This document shows positions 3,731-49,187 of a stretch of DNA of 54,907 nucleotides, in pieces. Below the pieces are notes generated by a model that had not been told where the DNA came from, made no database searches, and was given only the letters and a program-made list of their open reading frames with translations. Origin of the DNA: a virus; IMG/VR virus record IMGVR_UViG_3300042731_005307, positions 1 to 54,907 of that record. One strand, given 5' to 3'. Within the stretch, counting starts at the first letter, position 1; every line of letters starts with the position of its first letter. The position numbers were made by a program, and so were the translations under genes.

Positions 3731-5980
3731 CTAAAAAAATTTTTTTCTCATTTTTTCATTTACCGCCAATTTAATATTTTTTTTTGCTTCTTCATAGTAA
3801 GAACTTTTTAGTTCTATCGCATATGCCAACCTATTTAGCAATAACGATTCATACGGCGTACTGCCAATCCCGGAAAACGGATCTAATACAATATCCCCTT
3901 CAATCGACCACAACTGTAATGCACGATGTATAACATCCAGCTGCAATGGACAGATATGTTTTTCATCATTTTCATCTTTTGCATTTCTAAACTGCAATGT
4001 ATTAGACGGGTTTATATCCATCCACACAGGACTGGCATACCGCTGCCAGATCTCAATAGACATATTTTTATTTCCGAAAAATTTATCTTCACCACAATAA
4101 TGATCAAACTCCCCGGCAACAGGTTTTTTATTTTCACCTGGTTTACGGAATGTGATTAAATAATCAGGAAGTCCCTGCCGGCACATAGTAGAATCTTTTT
4201 TTATTTGCTTGTGCAACAGCCCAAGCGCTTTTGTTCTTTGCATCGCAACAACAGGATTTTTCCAGATACAAACCTCTGAATGATAAATAAACCCTTTTTC
4301 TTTAAATAAATTAATAATATCTCCTCTGAAATCATACAAACCAATATATCCGTCAAATTGTTTTCTTGTGGGAATATTCATACAATGCACAGAAACATTG
4401 CGCCCGCTTTCAATCACCCGGTACAGTTCATCAACCAAAAAAGAAAAATGCTGAAAAAACTGTTTATAATTTTTACTGTTGCCCATATCTTCAATGTGAT
4501 CACTATATGTATACAAGCTGGCAAAAGGCGGACTGAAAATACTATAGCCAATACTTTCACTTTTTATGTCTTTAATTTTTTGAACACAATCACCCTTCAC
4601 CAAAATACAATCATCAATTGTAAATACATCAGTATCATTTGCCAACTTTATTTTTTTGTTCCTTTTTTTATTAACAACTTTTTTCATTTCGTCCCTCATC
4701 ATGTTAAATGTTTTTTCCTTTCTTTTTATTATTGCTATTACATTGTGCATTGTGTCTGTAGTTATAATATGTATATGTACTTTTTCTTTTTGACCAAACC
4801 GGTAACTACGCCGAACCGATTGATATAATTTTTCAAAACTAAAATCAAGCCCGGCATGTATTTGAATATGACAATGCGAATAATCTAAACCCATACCGGC
4901 AATACTTTCTTTTGTAATAAGTATTTTAAATTTTTTATTTAAAAATCCTATCAGATTTTTTTCTTTTTTTTGTATTGGATCACTGCCTCTGACCTCTCTA
5001 TAATCATAGCCATTCAAAATATTTTTTAAATAGTCAGCCTCAGCATTTTGTTTTACCCATACAATAATAAATTCATTTTTGTTGCCATCAATAATTTTTT
5101 TAACTTCATTCATTCTGATTTCAATTGTTCTTCGCAATTCCTTGTTAAACGAAGTTGCATTAACAGCAAAATCATTAAATAACAATCCATTATTTTTTTT
5201 CGGTGTTTTTATTTTTATTTCATTATATTGTATATCCGGCAATTCATACATTTTAGATTCATTTTTAAAACCCAAATCAGCCGGATTAGTATATACAACC
5301 GCCCATTCACCTACCCAGGAATAAAAATCATTTTTTGCATGATTTTTTAAAATCCAGTTTGATGTGTTCCCACCATCATGAACAAAAAACATTGCCAGCA
5401 TTTCACTATAAGACATTTCATTTAAAAATTCAGAATGATTTCCAAGTTCCATAAGATCATTCGGGGACGGTGTAGCCGTAAGTGCCAATTTGTATTTTAC
5501 ATCTTTACAAACATCAATTATTTTATTTCTCATTTTTCCACAAAAAGATTTTAAAATACTACTTTCATCTAATGCAATACCAACAAAATCATTAATATTT
5601 ATATTATCAATTTGCTCATAATTAGAAATATAAATTGCCGGAGCATTTATTTCATCAAAATGTTGTAATTTGTTGACAATAACATTAAATGTATTTTTTC
5701 CTTTTTGTATTGTTTGTGCATTAACTCCCAAAGGGGCAAATATCAAAACATTTTTTTTTGTTTTTTTAACAACCTCTTCTGCCCAGGATAATTGTATTGC
5801 TGTTTTGCCTGTCCCTGTTTCTCCAAACACAGCAAACTTGCCTTTTTTCAAAGACAAAGAAACAATGTATTTTTGAAATTTATATAAAACCGGGTTTATA
5901 TTTTCAACACCAATATCAAACCCACAATTATCAATTTTTTTAATTTTGCTTTTTAAAAAATCTATATATTCTTCAGCCAT
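3731..5980 (-). CDS. SNF2/SF2 helicase fused to N4/N6 DNA methyltransferase
   Basis: 749 residues in two parts. Residues ~30-440 are an SF2 helicase: Walker A GETGTGKT (53-60), DESS (138-141), TATPSP (168-173) and motif VI QSVRRSYRFGQ (~386-396). Residues ~460-745 are a class-beta amino-methyltransferase with the catalytic SPPF motif (~490) preceding the SAM-binding DPFSGIGST (~708). SPPF is typical of N4-cytosine or N6-adenine methylases. The protein probably translocates on DNA and methylates a base, protecting phage DNA. Its start overlaps the end of the C5-methylase by 19 bp. Target site is unknown. Confidence 0.88.
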   Translation of the reverse strand: MAEEYIDFLKSKIKKIDNCGFDIGVENINPVLYKFQKYIVSLSLKKGKFAVFGETGTGKTAIQLSWAEEVVKKTKKNVLIFAPLGVNAQTIQKGKNTFNVIVNKLQHFDEINAPAIYISNYEQIDNININDFVGIALDESSILKSFCGKMRNKIIDVCKDVKYKLALTATPSPNDLMELGNHSEFLNEMSYSEMLAMFFVHDGGNTSNWILKNHAKNDFYSWVGEWAVVYTNPADLGFKNESKMYELPDIQYNEIKIKTPKKNNGLLFNDFAVNATSFNKELRRTIEIRMNEVKKIIDGNKNEFIIVWVKQNAEADYLKNILNGYDYREVRGSDPIQKKEKNLIGFLNKKFKILITKESIAGMGLDYSHCHIQIHAGLDFSFEKLYQSVRRSYRFGQKEKVHIHIITTDTMHNVIAIIKRKEKTFNMMRDEMKKVVNKKRNKKIKLANDTDVFTIDDCILVKGDCVQKIKDIKSESIGYSIFSPPFASLYTYSDHIEDMGNSKNYKQFFQHFSFLVDELYRVIESGRNVSVHCMNIPTRKQFDGYIGLYDFRGDIINLFKEKGFIYHSEVCIWKNPVVAMQRTKALGLLHKQIKKDSTMCRQGLPDYLITFRKPGENKKPVAGEFDHYCGEDKFFGNKNMSIEIWQRYASPVWMDINPSNTLQFRNAKDENDEKHICPLQLDVIHRALQLWSIEGDIVLDPFSGIGSTPYESLLLNRLAYAIELKSSYYEEAKKNIKLAVNEKMRKKFF

Positions 5981-7026: not shown

Positions 7027-7615
7027 ATTTCATTATCCCATCATCATCAATAACAACCAAATTATCAAAAATATTATATTTAGGGTTTTTCACACAGGAA
7101 AGCAAATCAGAAATTCTTTTTTTTGGTATCTTTCCATCAAAACGATCAAACAACTCCTCCCTGATTTCTTTTTGTGTGTAATCTGCCTCTTCTAAAAGTT
7201 TTGCCAGTTCATTACTCAAATCACTGCTTTTTTTTCGGTATTTATTTTTTTGGGATTTTTTAATTTCTTTTTTATCTGTTTTTGGTTTTGCAGATTTTGG
7301 TTTTTCATTTTTTTTAGATTTTTTAATCGGTGCTTTTTTTTGCTTTTTAGATTTTTTATTGGAAACCGGTTTTTTGGTAACTGGTTTTTTAGACGGGACA
7401 ATTTTTATTCCTGCCGGTATATCAATTTCCAATTCTGTAAAAGTATCAACTGTAGATTTTTGTAATTTGTCGCCGTCTTCCAAAATGACAGCCGCCTCTT
7501 CCAATTCTGCAATCAAAACATCCTCGCCATATTTTTCAGCTTCATCCAGCGATATATCAAAATCCACTCCCAGCTCTGAAATATCCTTAATTGCTGCAAT
7601 TATTTGTTTTTTCAT
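7016..7615 (-). CDS. Lysine-rich protein with C-terminal helix-turn-helix-like domain
   Basis: 199 residues, not assigned to a named family. There is an acidic N-terminal part (1-60), a very basic low-complexity linker (~75-130, mostly Lys with Pro/Ser), and a compact C-terminal part with DYTQKEIREELFDRF then RISDLL, which reads like a winged-helix fold. The design (basic tail plus helix-turn-helix) suggests DNA binding or a nucleoid-like role. First gene after a promoter at 7645-7673, with an AGGAG ribosome site. Confidence 0.55.
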   Translation of the reverse strand: MKKQIIAAIKDISELGVDFDISLDEAEKYGEDVLIAELEEAAVILEDGDKLQKSTVDTFTELEIDIPAGIKIVPSKKPVTKKPVSNKKSKKQKKAPIKKSKKNEKPKSAKPKTDKKEIKKSQKNKYRKKSSDLSNELAKLLEEADYTQKEIREELFDRFDGKIPKKRISDLLSCVKNPKYNIFDNLVVIDDDGIMKFEK

Positions 7616-7644
7616 TTATTTCTCCTTTTGTTATTTATAATTAT

Positions 7645-7673
7645 ATTATACGTTTTTATGAAAAAAAAAGAAA
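7645..7673 (-). promoter_or_regulatory. Sigma70-like promoter, minus strand
   Basis: On the minus strand TTTCTT and TATAAT are separated by 17 bases. The segment ACGTATAATATAA is shared exactly with the promoter at 38677-38705. It would drive the lysine-rich protein, both methylases, clamp and polymerase. Confidence 0.6.
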
Positions 7674-7680
7674 ACTTTTT

Positions 7681-9075
7681 TTAAAAAAGAACATCTTTCT
7701 CCCACCGGCTATCCAGGTATGCCTTCCCTATCCCGTATTGGTATGCCACTAACACTTCCTCACCGACAAAAAATTCCTCTTCCCGGACAACTAGAGATCC
7801 CAAACGCATAACATTATTTTCTTTATTTTCTTTGCTCTGATTTAATGCTATCATATGTGTTACATGCGCCAACTTTCTAATATCTTCAGCAACTCCCTCT
7901 TCATCAATGTCTTTTTTAAATGTAGACCGGTTACCCTGGCTGGCAGTTACCACAATACAATTTATTTCTTGAGCAAGTCCCCTAGCAGTAGACCAGGTAT
8001 AATCAATTGCATGCCGTATTTCACGTGGGGAACTGGGTTCAGGTTTTAAAATATCCAAATAGTCTATAACAATTACATCAGGGTAAAATTTAGTATAGTG
8101 AGCTGCATTTTGTATTTCATTTTTTATCATATCTAAATTCACACTCCGGGACGGGTAACAAACAATATTTAATTGCCCCTGTCCAATCATCACCTCTAAT
8201 TTTTTTGCTTTCTCAATTACCTTTTTTACACTCAGCCCTTTTCTTTTTTCAAATGTATGCCGTAATTCATTTTTCTCTGTAAAAAACGGTATCTGTATTT
8301 CATGTCTTTCTTTTTTGCTTTGTCCATGCATTCCCTGGTGTATGCGCTGCAACAATTGTTTCTCCGGCATTTCCATACTCACAAATAAAACTTTAAGCTG
8401 CTTGAACAATGAGCGAACTGCAAAATCAATCAGCCACCAGGATTTTCCCCTTTTTGCAGGCGCAATAAAACTAAAAAAATCACCTCTACATACTGGGCCT
8501 ACCAACTCTCCCAACGCCCCGGGAAAACTAAATATTTCATTATCATCCTGCATCAAACTAGAAATTATTTTTTTATGGTCTTTTATGACATCTATATAAT
8601 TAGAATGTAATTTTTCTATCCTGCTATGAGACGATAACAACAACTCCGCTTTTCCAATTTCATTTTGAATCAAATACACATCCAAATCATCCCGCAATAA
8701 TTCCATGTTGCGTTTTTTTAAATAAAATTCCGCGGAATCAATTAAATATTTTTCATTAAAATTTTCTAATTCTGTATATCGCTTATTGAGCTGAATTAAA
8801 AAATCTTCTATCAACTCAATCATTTCATCTTTCAGTTTACCTTTTCGTTTTTCTTGTTTAAATATTTTTTCTATATCCTGAAAAGGTGCTTTATTATATT
8901 TTTTATAATATGCAACACACCACCCAGCTATTTTTTTAATATAACTGATTTGAATGTATGACAAATCCAATATAGGAAATATTTCCCGGATAAACCTGTC
9001 TGAAACAATCAGTCCTATTAACAAATCCTTTTCCGGCTCTGAATCAATTTTCTTTTTGATTATTTTCATATTCAT
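7681..9075 (-). CDS. DnaB-like replicative helicase
   Basis: 464 residues, the usual DnaB length. An N-terminal helical domain precedes the RecA-like ATPase. Walker A is APAKRGKSWW (~205-214, first glycine replaced by alanine as in many DnaB proteins). VLFVSMEMPEKQL follows, and Walker B VIVIDYLDIL lies near 345. It unwinds the fork with the primase at 11.4-12.3 kb. Its ATGA overlaps the YopX gene stop. Confidence 0.88.
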   Translation of the reverse strand: MNMKIIKKKIDSEPEKDLLIGLIVSDRFIREIFPILDLSYIQISYIKKIAGWCVAYYKKYNKAPFQDIEKIFKQEKRKGKLKDEMIELIEDFLIQLNKRYTELENFNEKYLIDSAEFYLKKRNMELLRDDLDVYLIQNEIGKAELLLSSHSRIEKLHSNYIDVIKDHKKIISSLMQDDNEIFSFPGALGELVGPVCRGDFFSFIAPAKRGKSWWLIDFAVRSLFKQLKVLFVSMEMPEKQLLQRIHQGMHGQSKKERHEIQIPFFTEKNELRHTFEKRKGLSVKKVIEKAKKLEVMIGQGQLNIVCYPSRSVNLDMIKNEIQNAAHYTKFYPDVIVIDYLDILKPEPSSPREIRHAIDYTWSTARGLAQEINCIVVTASQGNRSTFKKDIDEEGVAEDIRKLAHVTHMIALNQSKENKENNVMRLGSLVVREEEFFVGEEVLVAYQYGIGKAYLDSRWEKDVLF

Positions 9076-17781: not shown

Positions 17782-17789
17782 AAGTCGAA

Positions 17790-17828
17790 ACGCCCTTATG
17801 GGCGTCTGCCGGAACTGTCCACCCGGCA
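17790..17828 (+). ncRNA. Two GC-rich hairpins in a 5' leader
   Basis: ACGCCC-TTAT-GGGCGT (17790-17805) and TGCCGG/CCGGCA (17807-17828), only one base apart, in an otherwise AT-rich region. No T-run follows, so they are not simple terminators. They lie 40 bases upstream of the 42-residue membrane peptide and could be a cis-regulatory RNA. Confidence 0.4.
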
Positions 17829-17867
17829 CTGAAGAGACAGGACAAAAATTAAAATTGGAGGTCTAAA

Positions 17868-18629: not shown

Positions 18630-20039
18630 TTATGTTGTAAAAATATCTTGTATTGAATTTTTATTTGTAACATTTGTGTCTGCAGTATCCATATAATCAT
18701 TGGCACTATTTGTTCCCACATCTGTTTCAAACGCTGCTCCTTCAGTACAATTATAATATCCATTAACTGTACCAGAAGTAGAACTCAATAATGTTGTGAT
18801 TAATGCTGCCATATCATGACATTCATAAAATCCATATACATTTCCAGAATTTGATTGAAAACTTGTAGCTTTGCAAGACGATAGTGCATAACATAGTCTA
18901 TATCCAAAAATAAGACCAGTTCCAGTACTGACAAAAGTACTTGCTTTACACGCAGAAATTTGATTACAACCCTGATATCCATAAATAGTTCCGTCTACTG
19001 TTTCTGCATCGTCTACAAAACAAGCAGATATTTGATCACATGCATAAAAACAGTAAATGGAACCAGAATATGCTTCTATTGTTTGTATTTGACAAGCAGA
19101 TATTTGATCACATTGATAAAATCCAGAAACATTTCCGCTGCCTGTTGAATTTATAATATTTTTTACATATGCTCCAGCAATAACAATATTATCATGATAA
19201 ACGAATATGTCACCATTTCCTGTTCCAGAAATATTTGTTGCTCTAGTATTATTTAAATATCCAGATTCTGCAAAAATCTCAAGCTGATAAGCACCAGTAG
19301 AAATAGTATCTGCCCAACAACCATTAACAGAAAAACAACGACTAAAAACAACTACACCAAAAACAGAGGCAGCATCACTATTAAAATTTTGAACAAAACA
19401 ATTTCTAAAAAGACAATTATCTTGCACGTTACCATGAAAAATTCTATAAATAGTGTCCGCTTCAACAAGCCGATTTTTTACTGAACATTGATCTAATACT
19501 ATACCACTATTTGCACAGAAAAAATGACTACTAGTATCAGTTGCAGAAAAAGCGGCTGAGCCTATCCCCTCACATGGAACTTTAAAGTAACCGCCCTCTT
19601 CTATATATAATTGAAATGGTTCGTCCCCGACTGCTAAATGCCCGCCGTCTTCTATTTCAAACCGGGTACAATTATTTGTCTGCAATACTCCCCAGGTATC
19701 GCCGTCCGATAAATAAGAAGTCCCGCCATAACACAAATAACCGCCAGACAAGTATTTTAATTTTATTGTAATTACTTCGTCTTTAAGTTTATATGTATTC
19801 GCGGCAGTTCGTTCTATCAGTTCATTAAATCCGGCCTGAGTAGAAACTGTATAATTGCCCGGCCCGTGAATCATTGTTCCGGTCAACGTTATGTCTGTGT
19901 TGATAAATTCTTTTAGTAGAGATAATGGAACTTGTTTGTCCCTGTCCGCTGCTACTCCCTGCATTGCCCATAAAATGTCAGTTAAATTTAAACTGGTTGC
20001 CGGATCAAAATCAGGCGGACTAATTGTTGTATATGCCAT
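18630..20039 (-). CDS. Tail-fibre/tailspike-like repeat protein
   Basis: 469 residues, last gene of the leftward tail operon. The N-terminus (~1-60) looks like a virion-attachment part. Residues ~110-420 contain repeating ~20-residue units of the form GxxYGFYxCxQISAC, rich in Cys, Gly and Tyr, consistent with a right-handed parallel beta-helix. It probably binds a host surface glycan. No catalytic residues can be assigned. Confidence 0.65.
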   Translation of the reverse strand: MAYTTISPPDFDPATSLNLTDILWAMQGVAADRDKQVPLSLLKEFINTDITLTGTMIHGPGNYTVSTQAGFNELIERTAANTYKLKDEVITIKLKYLSGGYLCYGGTSYLSDGDTWGVLQTNNCTRFEIEDGGHLAVGDEPFQLYIEEGGYFKVPCEGIGSAAFSATDTSSHFFCANSGIVLDQCSVKNRLVEADTIYRIFHGNVQDNCLFRNCFVQNFNSDAASVFGVVVFSRCFSVNGCWADTISTGAYQLEIFAESGYLNNTRATNISGTGNGDIFVYHDNIVIAGAYVKNIINSTGSGNVSGFYQCDQISACQIQTIEAYSGSIYCFYACDQISACFVDDAETVDGTIYGYQGCNQISACKASTFVSTGTGLIFGYRLCYALSSCKATSFQSNSGNVYGFYECHDMAALITTLLSSTSGTVNGYYNCTEGAAFETDVGTNSANDYMDTADTNVTNKNSIQDIFTT

Positions 20040-38347: not shown

Positions 38348-38451
38348 AAAAAGCGGGTCTAGGTTTTTATTTTCTTACTAGCAACTTGTTCCGGACAAGT
38401 ACCGGTACTAATAGCCATATCCGCAATGACCAGCTACGGTTGGACTTTTCT

Positions 38452-38545
38452 TTGCCGGGGCAGGAATCGAACCTGCACGGAGTTATTTGTTATTACCCCC
38501 ACCAAGGCAATCCCTTGGCGCGTCTTCCACTTCCGCCACCCGGCT
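38452..38545 (-). tRNA. Class II (Leu-type) tRNA-like gene with abnormal anticodon loop
   Basis: Minus strand: acceptor AGCCGGG with CCCGGCA (6 pairs, A1-A72 mismatch), T8, D-arm GCG/CGC with GG in the loop, anticodon stem CCAAG/CTTGG, long variable arm, and T-arm GCAGG-TTCGATT-CCTGC. The body is that of tRNA-Leu. The anticodon loop is GGATTGC: U33 is absent and the nominal anticodon ATT is not Leu. The region can also form 6 bp with a 5-base loop. No CCA is encoded. It is a tRNA relic or a non-decoding mimic. Confidence 0.65.
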
Positions 38546-38617
38546 ATCTGCATAGAGTCATCAAGTACTAAAATCTTAAAATCTTATACACAAAGTGTTA
38601 GTATGTAATTTATAGTT

Positions 38618-41903: not shown

Positions 41904-43145
41904 CTATACCTCCAAATCTGGATACCTTATTTTACGAGACTCTTCCGCATCTATAACTTGATTTGCAATATCAGTTGAATGTGTTTCCGCATTTAATTTT
42001 TTTGTTTCGGCTTTTTCTTTTTCAGTCGGCTCCCACAAAGAATTAAAAGTAATTGTATATTTATTTTCTTTGTTGCTGCCATAAACAGCTTTTCCGATTA
42101 CATTAATTAATTTTTGCAGTTCCGGTTCAAGTTTTTGTGTCTGTTGTGTACTCACATCATCATAATAGTTAGTTATATCGCTTTCGCCTGTCGCATTCAT
42201 TCCCGCAGGAGATCGCCGAAATAATTTAGTTGCCGGGATCTTTGCAACACCGGTTAAATTAATCATCATTCTATCTATAATGTCCGCTAAACCGGACAGG
42301 TTCGCAGAGTCCCTTGTAAAAGACTCCCCTTCACCGATCATAACAGCGTTTAACATAGACTTGCATGCGTTTATAGCTTCTAACCGTGTGTATACAGCAC
42401 TCATCATTTCTTCTTTATTCATAGCTAATATTTCAGCTAAATTAGAAAATTCATATATCCCCAAATTAAACTCCAAAAGCAAATTTGCAACAGCCCTTTC
42501 CACTGCTCCGTAATTTTTTAACCGGGCCCATATTCTTTGCATTGTAGACAGTCCCCAATATTGATAGGTAAGATCTAATTCAAAATCATCAGATACAAGT
42601 TCGCCTCCAAACCACAAACAACGCGATCTATGTATATCTAGCATTTTCCCGGAACGGGTTAAAACATGAAATATTTCAACGTCATCAAAATATTCTGAAT
42701 TCGGATCTTCTACAATATCAGTTGATGTTAATATTATTCTTTTTGCAGAATATACACGCAGGCGTTTTACATTTCCAGGATTAGCCGGTATAGGCTTGTC
42801 TAATTCTCCCCGCTCTGTAATCATAACAACAATAGCCCCACGATATAGACGGGCATATTTTAATGCCTTGTTTAAATAATATACCGCTTTAATCCTTTTC
42901 ATTTCATTTTGTATTTTTTCTTTTTCGTCATTTGCTATTGTCCACCCGGCCCGTGTCATATCATCCGGTACAGCATCAATTATATTTGCCGCCAGTCCTT
43001 CTCCATCATACAACGCGGACAAGTCTTCATCTTCCAAAATATAATCTTCAACAAAATATGTATTTTCTGTTTTATCTTTTTTCTTTACACCGATACCGGC
43101 AATTAAATTTGACCAGCCGTCTGTGCGCAGTGCTTCCATTACCAT
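41904..43145 (-). CDS. Portal protein, DUF1073-like
   Basis: 413 residues from ATG 43145, which has GGAGGAA; the TTG five codons upstream is rejected because it falls in that ribosome site. DDMTRAGWTIANDEKEKIQN, then ALKYARLYRGAIVVM is the DUF1073 portal pattern. It forms the dodecameric ring for DNA packaging. Its ribosome site lies within the end of the cysH gene, so translation is linked to the CRISPR cassette. Confidence 0.88.
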   Translation of the reverse strand: MVMEALRTDGWSNLIAGIGVKKKDKTENTYFVEDYILEDEDLSALYDGEGLAANIIDAVPDDMTRAGWTIANDEKEKIQNEMKRIKAVYYLNKALKYARLYRGAIVVMITERGELDKPIPANPGNVKRLRVYSAKRIILTSTDIVEDPNSEYFDDVEIFHVLTRSGKMLDIHRSRCLWFGGELVSDDFELDLTYQYWGLSTMQRIWARLKNYGAVERAVANLLLEFNLGIYEFSNLAEILAMNKEEMMSAVYTRLEAINACKSMLNAVMIGEGESFTRDSANLSGLADIIDRMMINLTGVAKIPATKLFRRSPAGMNATGESDITNYYDDVSTQQTQKLEPELQKLINVIGKAVYGSNKENKYTITFNSLWEPTEKEKAETKKLNAETHSTDIANQVIDAEESRKIRYPDLEV

Positions 43146-43146
43146 T

Positions 43147-43860
43147 TTATATTCCTCCAATTTTGTTTAATTCATTTTGATAGTATTCTTTTTCCCATAG
43201 CAATTTATCAAAAGCATCGCCTCTTTTAATGCCCAATGAAGCAACCCGTATATGTTCACGGTTATATCTCCCACCACCCAACATCCCGTAATTTGGATGA
43301 ACCGGCAATTGATAATGAGCCAAATAGGCAAAAATATCTGATTGTTTCCAATATGCCAACGGACGGCAGGTTTTTTCTGTCTTTACACCATAAATTTTTG
43401 TTAACATTTTTCTTATTCCAGACTCTTCAGCACGTACACCGGATATATATTTTTTTCCAAATTGTTTAACTGCTTTTTTAAAACCATTTTCTAAAACACC
43501 TGTGGCCCTATAGCGATTACCATCATACCACCTGCTTTCGGTTATCTCATAATAATTAACATTATAAGTTTTTAAAAAATAATTTCTAACATCAAAACAA
43601 TAAGGATTTACAATATCTTTAACAATAATCCACACCAATGGTATTTTAATTTGTGCCCTATAACACAAATGCACCAAAACAGTTGAGTCCTTGCCCCATG
43701 AAGTACTAACATAATCACTATCAAAATTGATAATAGTATCAATAGCTTTTTGTTCTTTTTCCACCATATTATGATTATTATAATAAATCAAATCGGCTTC
43801 CTCATAACTATCCCAAATTTCTAAATCCTGTTGTGTATGCTTGTCACACTGTATTAACAT
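43147..43860 (-). CDS. cysH: CysH-like PP-loop ATPase of type IV-B CRISPR cassette
   Basis: 237 residues from ATG 43860 (GGAG upstream). STSWGKDSTVLVHL (~53-66) is the PP-loop; GVRAEESGIRKM and CRPLAYWKQSDIFAYLAH are the conserved middle and late blocks of the PAPS reductase family. The C-terminus (LNKIGGI) lacks the ECGxH redox motif of true PAPS reductases, so sulfate reduction is unlikely. A cysH-like gene is the known marker of type IV-B CRISPR-Cas loci, where its role is unresolved. Last gene of the cassette, joined to the portal gene. Confidence 0.85.
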   Translation of the reverse strand: MLIQCDKHTQQDLEIWDSYEEADLIYYNNHNMVEKEQKAIDTIINFDSDYVSTSWGKDSTVLVHLCYRAQIKIPLVWIIVKDIVNPYCFDVRNYFLKTYNVNYYEITESRWYDGNRYRATGVLENGFKKAVKQFGKKYISGVRAEESGIRKMLTKIYGVKTEKTCRPLAYWKQSDIFAYLAHYQLPVHPNYGMLGGGRYNREHIRVASLGIKRGDAFDKLLWEKEYYQNELNKIGGI

Positions 43861-44257
43861 TTCGTCTCCATTCCGACAGGGCAATTGCTAATGATGCCTC
43901 TACTGTCAAACAAAAATTATTGATTGTTGGTATTGTTGCTTTCTGGCAACTAATCAATTTAGGGAGCCCTTTCGTTTCTCCACCTATCAGTATAGTATCA
44001 AGATTGTTCCATGTGATATTATATATAGATTGTTTATAATAATTTTCGAGTGCAATTGTATGCATATCAATCAATGGCATCATGTTAGTTTCTATTATTT
44101 TAACTTTATTTTTTGCTTCAAACAGATTTCCTTTCAATTCCCATTTTATACTTATATCCTGTGAATTTACTAAAATTAATTTTTCAATTCCAAAACTAAA
44201 ACAAGTACGATATGCACGATTTAAATTACGTCCAACATTATATAAAACCACTCTCAT
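43844..44257 (-). CDS. SpoU/TrmH-type (SPOUT) RNA 2'-O-methyltransferase
   Basis: 137 residues. The three SPOUT motifs are present: NVGRNLNRAYRTCFSFGI (motif 1), ILIGGETKGLP (motif 2) and IPTINNFCLTVEASLAIALS (motif 3). The minimal length and the GGETKGLP form recall TrmL, which methylates position 34 of tRNA-Leu, but the substrate is unproven. It overlaps the zinc-ribbon gene by 4 bp and cysH by 17 bp. I do not know of it as a standard type IV-B component. Confidence 0.78.
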   Translation of the reverse strand: MRVVLYNVGRNLNRAYRTCFSFGIEKLILVNSQDISIKWELKGNLFEAKNKVKIIETNMMPLIDMHTIALENYYKQSIYNITWNNLDTILIGGETKGLPKLISCQKATIPTINNFCLTVEASLAIALSEWRRNVNTV

Positions 44258-44799
44258 TTTTTTTTTTTCCTTCTATACATTTCTTTTTGATAGCAGCTCA
44301 TACAAACTTTTTTTCCAGGAAAAACACTTGTATATAATCCTGTTCTTGTTTCTTTTCCACATAATTCACATGTTTTTATCAGACGCCCATAATATTTATT
44401 CACATACTTGCGCTTATGCTGCATATAACAATAATTACAAACTTTTTTTCCAGGAAATAATGATTTAGTCATATATTCTAATTTATCTTTTCCACAAATA
44501 TCGCAATGATTTTTATGTTTTGGTATACTCCTTTTTTGTTTGCATTTATTTTTCTTTTTTAAATGAAAAGTACAAACAATTTTATTATAAAAATAATAAA
44601 GTTCTCTTTGTAAAAAATTATATTTTTCATTTAGAGTTCCAGGAGACAGGCAAACAAGTGCTATAATTTGCAACACGTCCCACCTATAGTGTGGATAAAT
44701 ATACTTCCATAATTTATTTTTTTTAGCAAAAGTAAAAAACAATGGATAATCCTGAATCACATTTGCGTATTGTTGTATTATATAATAACCATTTAACAT
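44254..44799 (-). CDS. Double zinc-ribbon protein in CRISPR cassette
   Basis: 181 residues. A helical N-terminal half (~1-95) ends in a basic stretch. Two similar ~26-residue ribbons follow: C99xxC102...C121xxC124 and C144xxC147...C166xxC169, both containing FPGKKVC. The basic C-terminus suggests nucleic-acid binding. It overlaps csf3 by 7 bp and the SPOUT gene by 4 bp. No family recognised; possibly an RNA-binding partner of the cassette. Confidence 0.65.
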   Translation of the reverse strand: MLNGYYIIQQYANVIQDYPLFFTFAKKNKLWKYIYPHYRWDVLQIIALVCLSPGTLNEKYNFLQRELYYFYNKIVCTFHLKKKNKCKQKRSIPKHKNHCDICGKDKLEYMTKSLFPGKKVCNYCYMQHKRKYVNKYYGRLIKTCELCGKETRTGLYTSVFPGKKVCMSCYQKEMYRRKKKK

Positions 44800-45473
44800 G
44801 GAACCACAACCTCACACTGATTTTCTGGATGCCAGTAGGGTGGTTTGTATGCACCAAATCCATAACGAATACCGTCCATGTTTCGAGTAGCATCACAAAC
44901 AGGCAGAGTCTTCATCAATATTTTTTTCCCGGAGCACCGCGCGGATATTGAAAAATTTTCCTTTATTATTTCAACATTCCATTTATTTACAATACCATAT
45001 CCTATTTTTCTAAAATAACCAAGCGAGTTAACATATTTCAATAATCGTAATGCCTGCTCAGAGTCCCCCCTAGCAAACCAAACCACCCTACTAATTATTT
45101 TAGCATGCAGCGTCTGAAATCTTGAACGTAAATACCCACCCCCTATATTAATGGTTTTTCTCTTTAGTGGATCTATGATTGTGCTAAGCATATCTGTTTC
45201 AAATCTTTTTGCCAATTTATCATGCCATTCTGTTTCAATTATATAAACCGGATCAGAACAACAGTTAACTTTATCTCCTCCAACATCATATTCAGTAAGC
45301 GGTATCGGCAAACGTTCAAATTCAGTTATAGGTGTTGCTTTTGTATATTTTTTTGATTTGAATGTATTCATATAAAATGCAAGCTGATAAGTCAACAATG
45401 AGTCCAGTGGTGGTATTTCCCCCACCACTGGTGCAACCAAATAAGCCGTTACTTTAAAATTTTCTATTGCCAT
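44793..45473 (-). CDS. csf3: Type IV Cas5-like protein Csf3
   Basis: 226 residues from ATG 45473 (GAGG upstream; a GTG at 45485 is the alternative). The N-terminal RAMP strand NFKVTAYLVAPVVGEIPPLD, the NIGGGYLRSRFQ block and the C-terminal glycine-rich loop FRKIGYGIVNKW fit Csf3, the Cas5-like subunit that would cap the 5' end of a guide RNA in the type IV complex. Follows csf2 with a short overlap or gap, depending on start. Confidence 0.8.
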   Translation of the reverse strand: MAIENFKVTAYLVAPVVGEIPPLDSLLTYQLAFYMNTFKSKKYTKATPITEFERLPIPLTEYDVGGDKVNCCSDPVYIIETEWHDKLAKRFETDMLSTIIDPLKRKTINIGGGYLRSRFQTLHAKIISRVVWFARGDSEQALRLLKYVNSLGYFRKIGYGIVNKWNVEIIKENFSISARCSGKKILMKTLPVCDATRNMDGIRYGFGAYKPPYWHPENQCEVVVPC

Positions 45474-45481
45474 AAACGACC

Positions 45482-46426
45482 TCACTTAAAATTTTTATCA
45501 AGCCATTCGATACACTTGGCTTTATTAACCTCAACATGATTAATGTATTCGTCAATGCAGTCGTCAATATCGCTGGCGGAAATAAAATCCTTGCTGTCTT
45601 CGATCATGACGTTCAATTTCAATTTACCATGTCCAATTCTTGAATAGCCACCAAGAAACGCACCGGATTCCTGCCATGTTTCCAAAGATAAAAAAAAGGC
45701 ACCGACCTCTTTACGCGATATTCTATTCAAGATAAAGCCGTGATAAAATAATGATCCGGTAATAATGCATTGTCCGTTATAAATCATTAAACCGGTTTTT
45801 TTATCCGATGCTAATTCATCTTGAGAAACGATCTCAACAACATCCTTATGTCGAGTAATATCGCCTCTTGTATATTGATATGCGTGAATAAAATCTTCAC
45901 TTGATTTCAGTTGACAATTCAAATCAATATCAAATTTTTCGGGCAATAACTCATAAATAAAATGTTTATTTTCTTCACAAATTAATTTCCCGCGAAACAC
46001 AATGAGACTTCCTGCAACTATTTGCCACGGAAGACTTGCCCCTAATAGCCTCACAAGTGGAAACAATTCATACATTTCGGCAATTTCTTTCATTTTCTCA
46101 GAGTTGCTGCTTTCAGTTAATCCACCGCCATAAAACAAAAAATTAGCCTGTTTAATGTCAATTTTCTTTCTCATGCTACATGCATTAAGAAGATAATGCA
46201 TACCGGAATCACGAATTAATTTATGACGAATTGAATTTCCAGACAAAACAGGTATCCATTTTTCCATACCATTATGGATAACCTTTTCCCTATTGATTAT
46301 TGACTCATTTCCAGCTGTCTCCATCATGTGCGTTAATGGGGACAAAGTCTCAGACACACAATGAACTTTAACTGTTCCTATATCTTTTTTTCTACGTTTT
46401 ACTTTTGGTCTTACTGTTTTATTCAT
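45482..46426 (-). CDS. csf2: Type IV Cas7-like backbone protein Csf2
   Basis: 314 residues. PVLSGNSIRHKLIRDSGMHY (~59-78), the LFYGGGL block, FPLVRLLGASLPWQ and the late glycine-rich SGAFLGGYSRIGHGKL are the Cas7/RAMP features of Csf2. It would polymerise along RNA to form the crescent backbone. Order csf1-cas11-csf2-csf3 with overlapping ends is that of type IV loci. Very basic N-terminus. Confidence 0.85.
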   Translation of the reverse strand: MNKTVRPKVKRRKKDIGTVKVHCVSETLSPLTHMMETAGNESIINREKVIHNGMEKWIPVLSGNSIRHKLIRDSGMHYLLNACSMRKKIDIKQANFLFYGGGLTESSNSEKMKEIAEMYELFPLVRLLGASLPWQIVAGSLIVFRGKLICEENKHFIYELLPEKFDIDLNCQLKSSEDFIHAYQYTRGDITRHKDVVEIVSQDELASDKKTGLMIYNGQCIITGSLFYHGFILNRISRKEVGAFFLSLETWQESGAFLGGYSRIGHGKLKLNVMIEDSKDFISASDIDDCIDEYINHVEVNKAKCIEWLDKNFK

Positions 46427-46863
46427 TTCGTGCCTCCCTTTTTATTTTTATTCCAAGTATCACGGGATTTAACAATAATAAGATAATGTTTTTTTTCAAT
46501 TGTACGTAGAAATTGTTGTTTCCATTCTTTATCTCTTGTTGATAATGTCGAAATAAAATAATGTAAATTTTCATTTGCTGCAGCTTTACCACTATCTGCT
46601 TTAACATAATCCAAACAATGATTAACAAAAAGTTCAACATCACCACCGGCTTTTGCCAATGAAGAAACAAGTCCATTGCCAATTCGTTCCCATAGTGTTT
46701 TGCGGTCCAAATTATCACCAAACACTTCAGGCAATATTGATACAAATCTTATAACCTCATCTTCCATTGATTTTTTACCCAAATCATCCATTTGTCCCAG
46801 CGGGTCCAATAGCCCTGCTATTTTTAAACGGAACTCTTCAGGTGTTAACTGATTGATATTCAT
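46423..46863 (-). CDS. cas11: Type IV small subunit Cas11-like
   Basis: 146 residues, predicted all-helical (LTPEEFRLKIAGLLDPLGQM, then ENLHYFISTLSTRDKEWKQQ), with a basic C-terminus. It lies between csf1 and csf2, where type IV-B loci carry the small Cas11 subunit. Its assignment depends mainly on position, size and helical content, since Cas11 proteins diverge strongly. Overlaps csf1 by 26 bp and csf2 by 4 bp. Confidence 0.7.
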   Translation of the reverse strand: MNINQLTPEEFRLKIAGLLDPLGQMDDLGKKSMEDEVIRFVSILPEVFGDNLDRKTLWERIGNGLVSSLAKAGGDVELFVNHCLDYVKADSGKAAANENLHYFISTLSTRDKEWKQQFLRTIEKKHYLIIVKSRDTWNKNKKGGTK

Positions 46864-47485
46864 TTTGAGCCTCCTGTTTATTTTTTGCTAACCATACCGC
46901 CAACTGTGACAATGGTTGCATATGTATTTTGAGCCATTTCTCATACTCAATTAAATCATTCCAGTATTTTTGAACAGCTATTGCATATTGTACTTTATCA
47001 GGATTCAATATTGCTACTTTTCCTATAGCAGCACTTAGTCTATTACATATAAATATTCGTTTTGCCAATTCCTTCAAATCAACTATAATTTGTTGTTCCT
47101 CAAACTGCAATATAAAATTATTTTTATCAAAGTTCCATGGAGCTCTAAATAATAAATGCTTTTGTCCAGAATCTGCAATAACTAATTTGAATGGTTTTTT
47201 TTTGATATGAAATAATAAATATTTTATTTCCTCAATATGCTTTTTAGTAAATGCTATTTTTTTATTTTTTGTTATAAACCAGGAATAATTACGGGGACTT
47301 CCATTTCTAATTTCTCCATCTATCATTTGTATTTCAGAATTGCTGCCAAATGCCCAAACACAATCATCACAGACATATTGAGAATCAGGACAAGCCACTA
47401 TATCATAATTTGTAAACGTTTTTTTTACATATTCTTTTATTGAATATTTTTTATCACAATTTGATCCACAATAAAAACATTTCAT
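46838..47485 (-). CDS. csf1: Type IV signature protein Csf1 (Cas8-like)
   Basis: 215 residues, usual for Csf1. A cysteine-rich N-terminus with CFYCGSNC (C3, C6, C10) and PDSQYVCDDCVWAF (C39, C42) forms the Csf1 zinc finger, with TFTNYDIVACP between. The helical C-terminal part would contact the small subunits. It is the type IV marker gene and the first gene of the cassette. AGGAG ribosome site; no separate promoter seen upstream. Confidence 0.85.
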   Translation of the reverse strand: MKCFYCGSNCDKKYSIKEYVKKTFTNYDIVACPDSQYVCDDCVWAFGSNSEIQMIDGEIRNGSPRNYSWFITKNKKIAFTKKHIEEIKYLLFHIKKKPFKLVIADSGQKHLLFRAPWNFDKNNFILQFEEQQIIVDLKELAKRIFICNRLSAAIGKVAILNPDKVQYAIAVQKYWNDLIEYEKWLKIHMQPLSQLAVWLAKNKQEAQNEYQSVNT

Positions 47486-47681: not shown

Positions 47682-49187
47682 TTATTTTCTCCACAATGAT
47701 TTTGTATCAATTGGAGCCAACCCGCTTTTTTCATAAACTCCTGTTAAAGCGTCCGGTGCATCATCATGTGAATTTGCTTTAAAATTTCTTTTAAATCGTA
47801 ATATGTCCCTTGCAAATTCTGGCCACCGCGTAGTCCAGTTTATGGGAAATAAAATTTTTCTTTGTATAGCTGCTGAATTAGAAATAATCCGGCTTTCCTT
47901 ATTGTCTCCCTGATAAAATGTTTCCAACACATGCCGGCCCTTTGTAAACCCGTCTACATTTCTTGCAAAGGCCCGGCCACCGGCATTACTTTCTACATAT
48001 GCAATATTAACTTTGTTCCGGTCTAATAATTCGGCCGTTTCAATTTCTGTTTTATCCTGCGGTTCGTCTGTATAATAAATATCAGTAATATATATCATGT
48101 CGTCTACTCCGACTTCATAGCAAATACTACACAAATAATCTTTTCCCGTGTCGGCAACGTCTGTATAATTTTTTCTCCACTTAAAGGCCGGCTTAGTTAT
48201 GTAAATATTAAATCCTTTATATAATAATCCTTTAGAAGGCTTCGGATCTCCTTGATGTAGGGACTCAAATTTTTCTTCGTCTAAGTTTCTATCGTTTATT
48301 AATTTTTTTTGGCTATGTCTTTCCGGCCATAACGGTTCACCCTCTTTTCTTCCATCAAATTCATTTAATTCCGATTCTTTTGTTGCAAGAGCAGGGAAAT
48401 TAATTTTATACCAGGCATCAATGTCAATATTATTTAATTGTGTTTTTTCGGTAAGTAAAATAACCTTTTCGTCGTCCGACCTTTCTATAAATCCAATTAA
48501 ATCTTCTTCGTTCCACCGGGTAAAAACAATTAATTGCTGACTATTGTTATGCAGTCTTGTACGAACAACCGCAGTATACCAATCAATTACCGTTTCCCGA
48601 ACAACAGGACTATTCCCTTCCGCATAATCTTTGTATAAATCATCCATAAGGATTAAATCCACCGGGTCACCGGTAAGGGCTCCCCCTCTTCCCACCGCTT
48701 TACAACTACCCTGATAATTTATTATTTCAAATTCTTCTTGTTTTCTTTGAAACTTCATTCCCGTTTTAGACTTTTGGCTAAAAGGAGTACTACTGATAGT
48801 TGTTTCCGGGAACAAATTAAAATATAATGGATCTGCAATGATCCGTTGCAGCTTTGTATTAAATCCCCGTGCCTTTGTTGCGTTATAACTAGCAATTGCA
48901 GCTTTTAAATTTGGATTCTGTCCAAACATAAATGCCGGAAGTCGCAAAGTAGACAATTCTGATTTACCATGCTGAGGCGGCATTGAAATAATTAATTTTT
49001 TTATTTCTCCCCGCGCAAACAATGTTAATATTTGTGCATACTCTTTATGTATCCCTGTTAGTTGATACATGGGGAACAGGTACTGCGTAAAGGGAGCTAA
49101 ATGAGACCGTGCTAATTGTCTCATTTCTAACTCTCTATACATTTGTGCCGCAAAATCTCCGGCAATCATAGAATTTACACTTGTCAT
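47682..49187 (-). CDS. terL: Terminase large subunit
   Basis: 501 residues. The ATPase has Walker A-like PPQHGKSE (~83-90), then LKAAIASYNATKARGFN, and Walker B LILMDD (~180). The C-terminal RNase H-like nuclease has VADTGKDYLCSIC with the acidic residues DIYYTDEP and AYVESNAGG. It packages DNA into the prohead with the small subunit encoded at 52435-53187. Overlaps the GNAT gene by 4 bp. Confidence 0.93.
   Translation of the reverse strand: MTSVNSMIAGDFAAQMYRELEMRQLARSHLAPFTQYLFPMYQLTGIHKEYAQILTLFARGEIKKLIISMPPQHGKSELSTLRLPAFMFGQNPNLKAAIASYNATKARGFNTKLQRIIADPLYFNLFPETTISSTPFSQKSKTGMKFQRKQEEFEIINYQGSCKAVGRGGALTGDPVDLILMDDLYKDYAEGNSPVVRETVIDWYTAVVRTRLHNNSQQLIVFTRWNEEDLIGFIERSDDEKVILLTEKTQLNNIDIDAWYKINFPALATKESELNEFDGRKEGEPLWPERHSQKKLINDRNLDEEKFESLHQGDPKPSKGLLYKGFNIYITKPAFKWRKNYTDVADTGKDYLCSICYEVGVDDMIYITDIYYTDEPQDKTEIETAELLDRNKVNIAYVESNAGGRAFARNVDGFTKGRHVLETFYQGDNKESRIISNSAAIQRKILFPINWTTRWPEFARDILRFKRNFKANSHDDAPDALTGVYEKSGLAPIDTKSLWRK

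Follow-up and report, generated by a model that had tools for sequence, protein, structure and literature searches.

Type IV-B CRISPR-Cas systems are recognised by a signature gene set (PMC8175902), and in Mycobacterium the Csf complex of this subtype is a filamentous ribonucleoprotein (RNP) assembled on RNA of regular length, without CRISPR RNA (crRNA) (PMC7937560). What these systems do is an open question, and their strictly conserved CysH has so far been without a partner hinting at its substrate. Carriage by viruses is already known from the cultured Skermania phage SPI1 and from Fuxivirus, whose description also cites several lytic phages (PMC10848311); the presence of IV-B in a phage is hence not new. 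Here we analysed a cassette at positions 43147-47485 (minus strand) of the virus record IMGVR_UViG_3300042731_005307. The window is this entire record of 54,907 bases, which may be only part of the phage genome, and L-numbers (L008, L047, L106 and so on) and G014 are labels of compared contigs, loci or records outside it. The new part is a gene for a predicted RNA 2'-O-methyltransferase of the SPOUT family in IV-B loci, a variant of a known system.

The cassette consists of seven intact genes with overlapping ends, in the order csf1, cas11, csf2, csf3, zinc-knuckle gene, SPOUT gene and cysH-like gene. An initial annotation, made from the sequence alone, had named csf1, a Cas11-like gene, csf2, csf3 and a CysH-like gene, and PADLOC, NCBIfam and Pfam profiles recovered all five on the minus strand, within the coordinates and in the order given there. 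Its placement of CysH after Csf3 held as an order but not as a direct succession, since the zinc-knuckle and SPOUT genes intervene; the most informative feature of the locus was thus overlooked. The subtype proposed there, IV-B, is borne out by gene content: the type IV genes csf1, csf2 and csf3 match their PADLOC profiles at 1e-62, 8e-84 and 1e-32, and they are joined by a cas11-like subunit and a cysH-like gene. Also in agreement with that annotation, the 54,907-base record holds no profile match to Cas6 or to a DinG-type helicase and no CRISPR array; a mini-array was considered and rejected, nothing more than a short exact repeat, spaced at 72 nt, being seen around position 19020. Subtype IV-A was discarded, as there is no DinG helicase, Cas6 or array in the record, and so was IV-C, in which a Cas10-like HD large subunit replaces Csf1, because Csf1 is present and the operon has no other large subunit. 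In the Csf2 tree the window lies inside a group of eight phage sequences (support 100/100), which falls on the same side as PDB 7jhy and the plasmid IV-B sequences; the IV-A protein 8rc2 lies outside, but the fork has a support of 80/87 and 8rc2 forms a long branch there. The assignment to IV-B is firm by gene content, the tree by itself not being decisive.

The SPOUT gene belongs to a distinct subfamily, for which searches of IMG/VR and GTDB and a profile search gave 14 members, all 14 of them inside IV-B csf loci. They come from virus contigs (the window, L047, L102, L094, L066, L099, L101, L103, L112 and L115), from metagenome-assembled genomes (MAGs) of Chloroflexota (L106), Hydrogenedentota (L107) and Bacillus (L108), and from a profile search of genomes in the phylum of the Bacillus MAG (L118, the fourteenth). 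Pattern scans with the SPOUT alignment, two rounds in IMG/VR and one in 84,980 GTDB species genomes, returned csf-containing loci only; such scans start from the sequence patterns of the members at hand and may overlook more distant relatives in other places. Three profile searches, covering 767 genomes, detected four subfamily members at 61-185 bits, three already known plus L118, all adjoining csf genes. Ordinary chromosomal SpoU genes in these genomes score at most 41 bits, and no csf genes lie near any of the eight that were examined (L119-L126). Some of the 14 loci lie on short contigs and are seen only in part: L118 shows csf3 and cysH only, and L107 lacks csf1. Neither 50,697 phage records nor 72,556 plasmids contained a match to the SPOUT domain of L066. 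In every case the SPOUT gene is next to cysH or separated from it by a single phosphatase gene. The view that phages commonly carry SPOUT as cargo did not hold: PF00588 matched in 10 of 50 phage records, and besides the eight IV-B SPOUTs there were just two matches, a 69-residue fragment (G014) and a separate SpoU gene (record of L094). The association between SPOUT and IV-B is well supported. The searched literature, outside which lay the two main type IV surveys, yielded no account of SPOUT enzymes at type IV loci, and the accessible part of the 2025 classification (PMC12669027) makes no mention of one.

This linkage bears on the explanation that the locus is an ordinary IV-B RNA sponge or crRNA scavenger that counters RNA-guided defences of the host, SPOUT being a passenger that methylates phage or host tRNA independently of the RNP. 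IV-B is currently hypothesised to act as such a sponge (PMC7937560, PMC8175902), loose modification genes are numerous in phages, the same slot holds DNA methyltransferases, cupin or helix-turn-helix genes in other IV-B loci, and the SPOUT fold is close to that of TrmL, a tRNA-34 enzyme. A free tRNA-modification passenger would, however, be expected away from csf genes too, which was seen in none of the 14 members, and the csf3-SPOUT-cysH order and the gene overlaps argue for joint use; we hold this explanation to be a serious but rather unlikely one.

The inheritance of the SPOUT gene was compared with that of its neighbours through the Mantel correlation of their distances, with r of 0.84 for csf2-csf3, 0.62 for csf2-cysH, 0.27 for csf2-SPOUT and 0.13 for cysH-SPOUT. 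The SPOUT label changes about nine times on the Csf2 tree, from which L047 is absent, its sequence having been de-duplicated under L009. These changes and the weak distance correlation rule out strict co-inheritance of SPOUT with Csf2, and the poor agreement of the csf2 and SPOUT distances implies that SPOUT moves between IV-B lineages, yet it was not found outside IV-B. Moving among IV-B systems and never found beyond them is what is expected of a functional accessory.

Given that the SPOUT protein has no PDB match by sequence, its AlphaFold2 model, built from 13 sequences (pLDDT 90.9), was compared with the PDB by Foldseek, which returned TrmH (best, 2.5e-8), YibK/TrmL and RlmB, all of them 2'-O-methyltransferases, at a probability of 1.00. 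As modelled, the protein has the SPOUT/SpoU 2'-O-methyltransferase fold and the motifs of the S-adenosylmethionine site, with the motif-1 Arg (RNLNRAxRT) and the motif-2 Glu (GGE) invariant in the 13 sequences, and it is predicted to carry out RNA 2'-O-methylation. Motif 3 of TrmH-type enzymes carries an Asn; the subfamily has LT(V/T)EAALAI in place of this usual form. The CysH model (pLDDT 91.8) is nearest to PAPS reductases and then to the tRNA thiolases TtuA/NcsA and to TilS. The protein keeps the PP-motif SWGKDS and has no ECGLH-type catalytic Cys, a cysteine whose absence has likewise been noted for CasCysH (PMC8175902). The cysH start is better set at the ATG at 43860, which is preceded by GGAG.

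In seven of the 14 members SPOUT is fused to a phosphatase or has one directly on its 5' side, and three unrelated folds are represented. A PTP domain with an HCx5R site is fused to SPOUT in L066 and L115 and separate in L099 and L106; a HAD protein, called from its DxDGT and DD motifs with no significant Pfam match, occurs in L101 and L108; and L112 has a calcineurin-like metallophosphatase. Across the 50 phage records all three PTP domains lie at SPOUT, the HAD type is present only in the two SPOUT loci, and one of two metallophosphatases is at SPOUT. That three phosphatase folds were recruited independently is an argument for coupling of SPOUT to a phosphatase step in the lineages concerned. 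Such a pairing would also suit a guide-RNA maturation set, in which the phosphatase would heal, and SPOUT would 2'-O-methylate, the end of a Csf-packaged small RNA, giving Hen1-like protection. In its favour, Cas6 is not needed for the IV-B RNP to bind regular-length RNAs (PMC7937560); 2'-O-methyltransferases are repeatedly paired with phosphatases whose folds are unrelated, as is the case for the two classes of Pnkp/Hen1 (PMC4411300); and the Chloroflexota locus L106 combines Cas6 and an array with PTP-SPOUT-CysH. Against guide maturation, the usual SPOUT targets are internal riboses of folded RNA and not 3' ends, and the loci of L102, L094, L107 and the window contain no recognised phosphatase; we consider it unlikely.

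The reading that we put forward is that of a mobile phage IV-B operon variant with a dedicated RNA 2'-O-methyltransferase, in which SPOUT and CysH modify RNA handled by the Csf RNP, and we judge its chances of being right or wrong to be evenly balanced. Gene content, the conservation of the unit at two sites, the exclusive linkage of SPOUT to IV-B in the searched data, the fold of SPOUT and the phosphatase linkage were established directly. As to catalytic activity, RNA substrate and benefit to the phage, we infer a scheme in which Csf2, Cas11, Csf3 and Csf1 would form an RNA-bound filamentous RNP; the CysH-like ATPase would activate the RNA bound or targeted by it through an adenylation-type reaction, SPOUT would 2'-O-methylate that RNA, and in the sister loci the phosphatase would first strip phosphate from the same RNA, healing its ends. 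The phage would likely gain a protected guide RNA, or tRNA or mRNA resistant to host ribonuclease defences. The role suggested in the initial annotation, a tool against rival mobile elements or host defences, is a conjecture. An RNA 2'-O-methyltransferase family found only in IV-B loci near cysH, together with recurrent unrelated phosphatases, points to RNA modification, and the finding names concrete residues with which this could possibly be tested as the role of array-less IV-B systems.

Several points weigh against our proposal. Only about one in seven of the IV-B phage loci carry SPOUT, which is therefore not essential to IV-B function. Across the whole subfamily a Thr presumably holds the position of the TrmH motif-3 Asn, so activity is not assured, and in part of the SPOUT loci the PP-motif of CysH is degraded (SFGKQS). 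No recognisable phosphatase lies near the cassette in the window, and those of the sister loci could act on proteins or nucleotides. A bolder version, which we regard as doubtful, would make SPOUT-bearing IV-B RNPs RNA-guided RNA-modification machines, the filament with a phage or host small RNA directing SPOUT, CysH and sometimes the phosphatase. If true, they would correspond, in bacteria, to C/D-box small nucleolar RNPs, with the phage immunising tRNA or transcripts against host ribonuclease defences.

A search of related phages, suggested in the initial annotation, was made with a TerL scan that yielded 56 related phage contigs, and the same seven-gene cassette was recovered in L047 and in L009, which is the same phage type. 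L047 (51 kb) carries all seven genes in identical order, at 44-62% identity to the window. The insertion site differs, the cassette lying between portal and muF in L047 and between terL and portal in the window. In L008, whose TerL is 71% identical, the terL-portal gap is 24 nt and the cassette is absent, as it is from L010 and L011. The more distant relative L102 has csf1-cas11-csf2-csf3-SPOUT-cysH between portal and muF. The operon is a mobile phage-borne unit, conserved at two insertion sites. The patchy distribution and the close relatives without the cassette would also fit decaying cargo with no present function, but seven intact overlapping frames are kept at this identity in two phages with different insertion sites, where random decay would have broken them, and we find decay highly improbable. 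Among the loci compared, none but the window and L047 showed the zinc-knuckle gene; the L047 protein, 52% identical over aligned columns, has a single knuckle, so the duplication in the window looks recent. An exact 22-nt repeat (window 44301-44322 and 44436-44457), inside this gene, codes for part of the doubled knuckle.

The phage has a tail sheath gene (phrog_205, 5e-95) and baseplate genes and is therefore contractile-tailed, and its G+C content is 33%, in line with the low-GC, contractile-tailed phage of the initial annotation. The description there of IV-B among virion genes as unusual did not stand, considering Skermania phage SPI1, Fuxivirus and about 25 further phage IV-B loci. In SPI1, csf1-cas11-csf2-csf3-cysH correspond to orf40-44, unannotated in its record, cas11 being called by position and size. 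The further loci came from IMG/VR scans with CysH and Csf2, and several adjoin apparent terminase genes. Single-protein searches had given nothing (IMG/VR scans with Csf2 and SPOUT) and no match to Csf2 in the phage collection; two-sequence alignments of the window and L047 were used instead. Cassettes next to apparent terminase genes, as judged from sequence, occur in unrelated phages (L101 1294-3995; L071 590-6451; L079 10818-11312; L082 11025-12682; L096 5292-7525), which suggests a favoured insertion zone.

Other features of IV-B loci were also recorded. The csf3-cysH slot holds a DNA methyltransferase of the D12 or N6/N4 type in L072 (9219-10016), L082 (9124-10041) and L083 (9076-10020), the last called by its resemblance to L082. 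Cas6-family proteins, with no array seen, are present in the phage IV-B loci L079 (8331-9176; PF08798 5e-8) and L066 (9582-9998; PF10040 weak). The Chloroflexota MAG contig L106 (4357-4897, 5012-5680) has an IV-B-like locus with a Cas6 gene and a CRISPR array of at least 8 copies of a repeat of about 37 nt, beside PTP-SPOUT-CysH; both array and Cas6 are absent from most IV-B loci. A ParB-like gene and a second PAPS-reductase-like gene stand beside the IV-B type CysH in L096 (2658-5289) and L065 (1-1869), and in L099 a DUF559/Vsr-like endonuclease gene (7072-7884) separates the probable cas11 from csf2. In the window, a promoter scan gave 73 observed against 55 expected in AT-rich shuffles, an uninformative outcome, and a terminator scan 5 against 5.8.

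Table 1. Cassette genes, flanking genes and other features of the window (aa, amino acids).
Feature	Coordinates	Strand	Match	Remark
terL	47682..49187	-	phrog_38 3.6e-87	context, upstream of cassette
csf1, type IV Cas8-like subunit, 215 aa	46838..47485	-	PADLOC typeIV_Cas8 9.9e-63; NCBIfam TIGR03114 3.6e-12	N-terminal Cys motifs; 50% identity to L047 copy
cas11 small subunit, 146 aa	46423..46863	-	PADLOC typeIV_Cas11 2.7e-44	49% identity to L047 copy
csf2/Cas7 backbone, 314 aa	45482..46426	-	PADLOC typeIV_Cas7 8e-84; NCBIfam Csf2 7e-11; phrog_22746 2e-72	PDB 7jhy (IV-B Csf2) sole relevant phmmer match, E 0.0013
csf3/Cas5, 230 aa	44793..45485	-	PADLOC typeIV_Cas5 1e-32; NCBIfam TIGR03116 6.7e-8	
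zinc-knuckle protein, 181 aa	44254..44799	-		two near-repeated CxxC...FPGKKVCxxC knuckles
SPOUT/SpoU-family RNA 2'-O-methyltransferase, predicted, 137 aa	43844..44257	-	PF00588 1.8e-7, above curated cut-off	catalytic domain only
CysH-like PP-loop ATPase (CasCysH)	43147..43884	-	PF01507 (PAPS_reduct) 6.4e-11	
portal	41904..43160	-	PF06381 1.6e-85	context, downstream of cassette
tRNA-Asn, 96 nt	38451..38546	-	ARAGORN	anticodon ATT, unusual for Asn; possibly miscalled
type II hammerhead ribozyme match	17783..17846	+	40.7 bits, E 6e-5	exceeds Rfam gathering score
one protein matching DNA helicase and DNA methyltransferase families	3731..5980	-	phrog_16, phrog_67	

Compared with the Csf complex of Mycobacterium sp. 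JS623 (PDB 7jhy) and with Skermania phage SPI1, the window shares the csf1-cas11-csf2-csf3 order, the CysH-like protein and the lack of array, Cas6 and DinG; it differs in the zinc-knuckle and SPOUT genes added between csf3 and cysH, and its Csf2 is only about 23-28% identical to the plasmid and SPI1 versions. With Fuxivirus it shares carriage by a virus and a CysH gene, which in Fuxivirus adjoins csf3, whereas Fuxivirus is an archaeal (Bathyarchaeia) virus with a mini-array, and the accessible part of its description mentions no SPOUT or phosphatase (PMC10848311). The SPOUT protein has the fold, the motif-1 Arg and the motif-2 Glu in common with TrmL and TrmH, and a minimal catalytic domain as in TrmL, but it shows 12-24% identity to them in structure alignment, has LTVEAALAI at motif 3 and is tied to csf loci. 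Pnkp/Hen1 systems are ordered as phosphatase, 2'-O-methyltransferase and ligase, and their two classes have phosphatases of different superfamilies (PMC4411300). The likeness lies in the combination of an adenylating enzyme, a 2'-O-methyltransferase and a phosphatase, the last from more than one superfamily; the differences are that kinase and ligase are lacking here, the cassette proteins having no Pfam match to Pnkp/Hen1-type kinase or ligase domains, that SPOUT stands in for Hen1 and that a Csf RNP is alongside. Pnkp/Hen1 may thus be regarded as the closest functional analogy to the SPOUT-bearing IV-B loci, a parallel in logic and not in homology.

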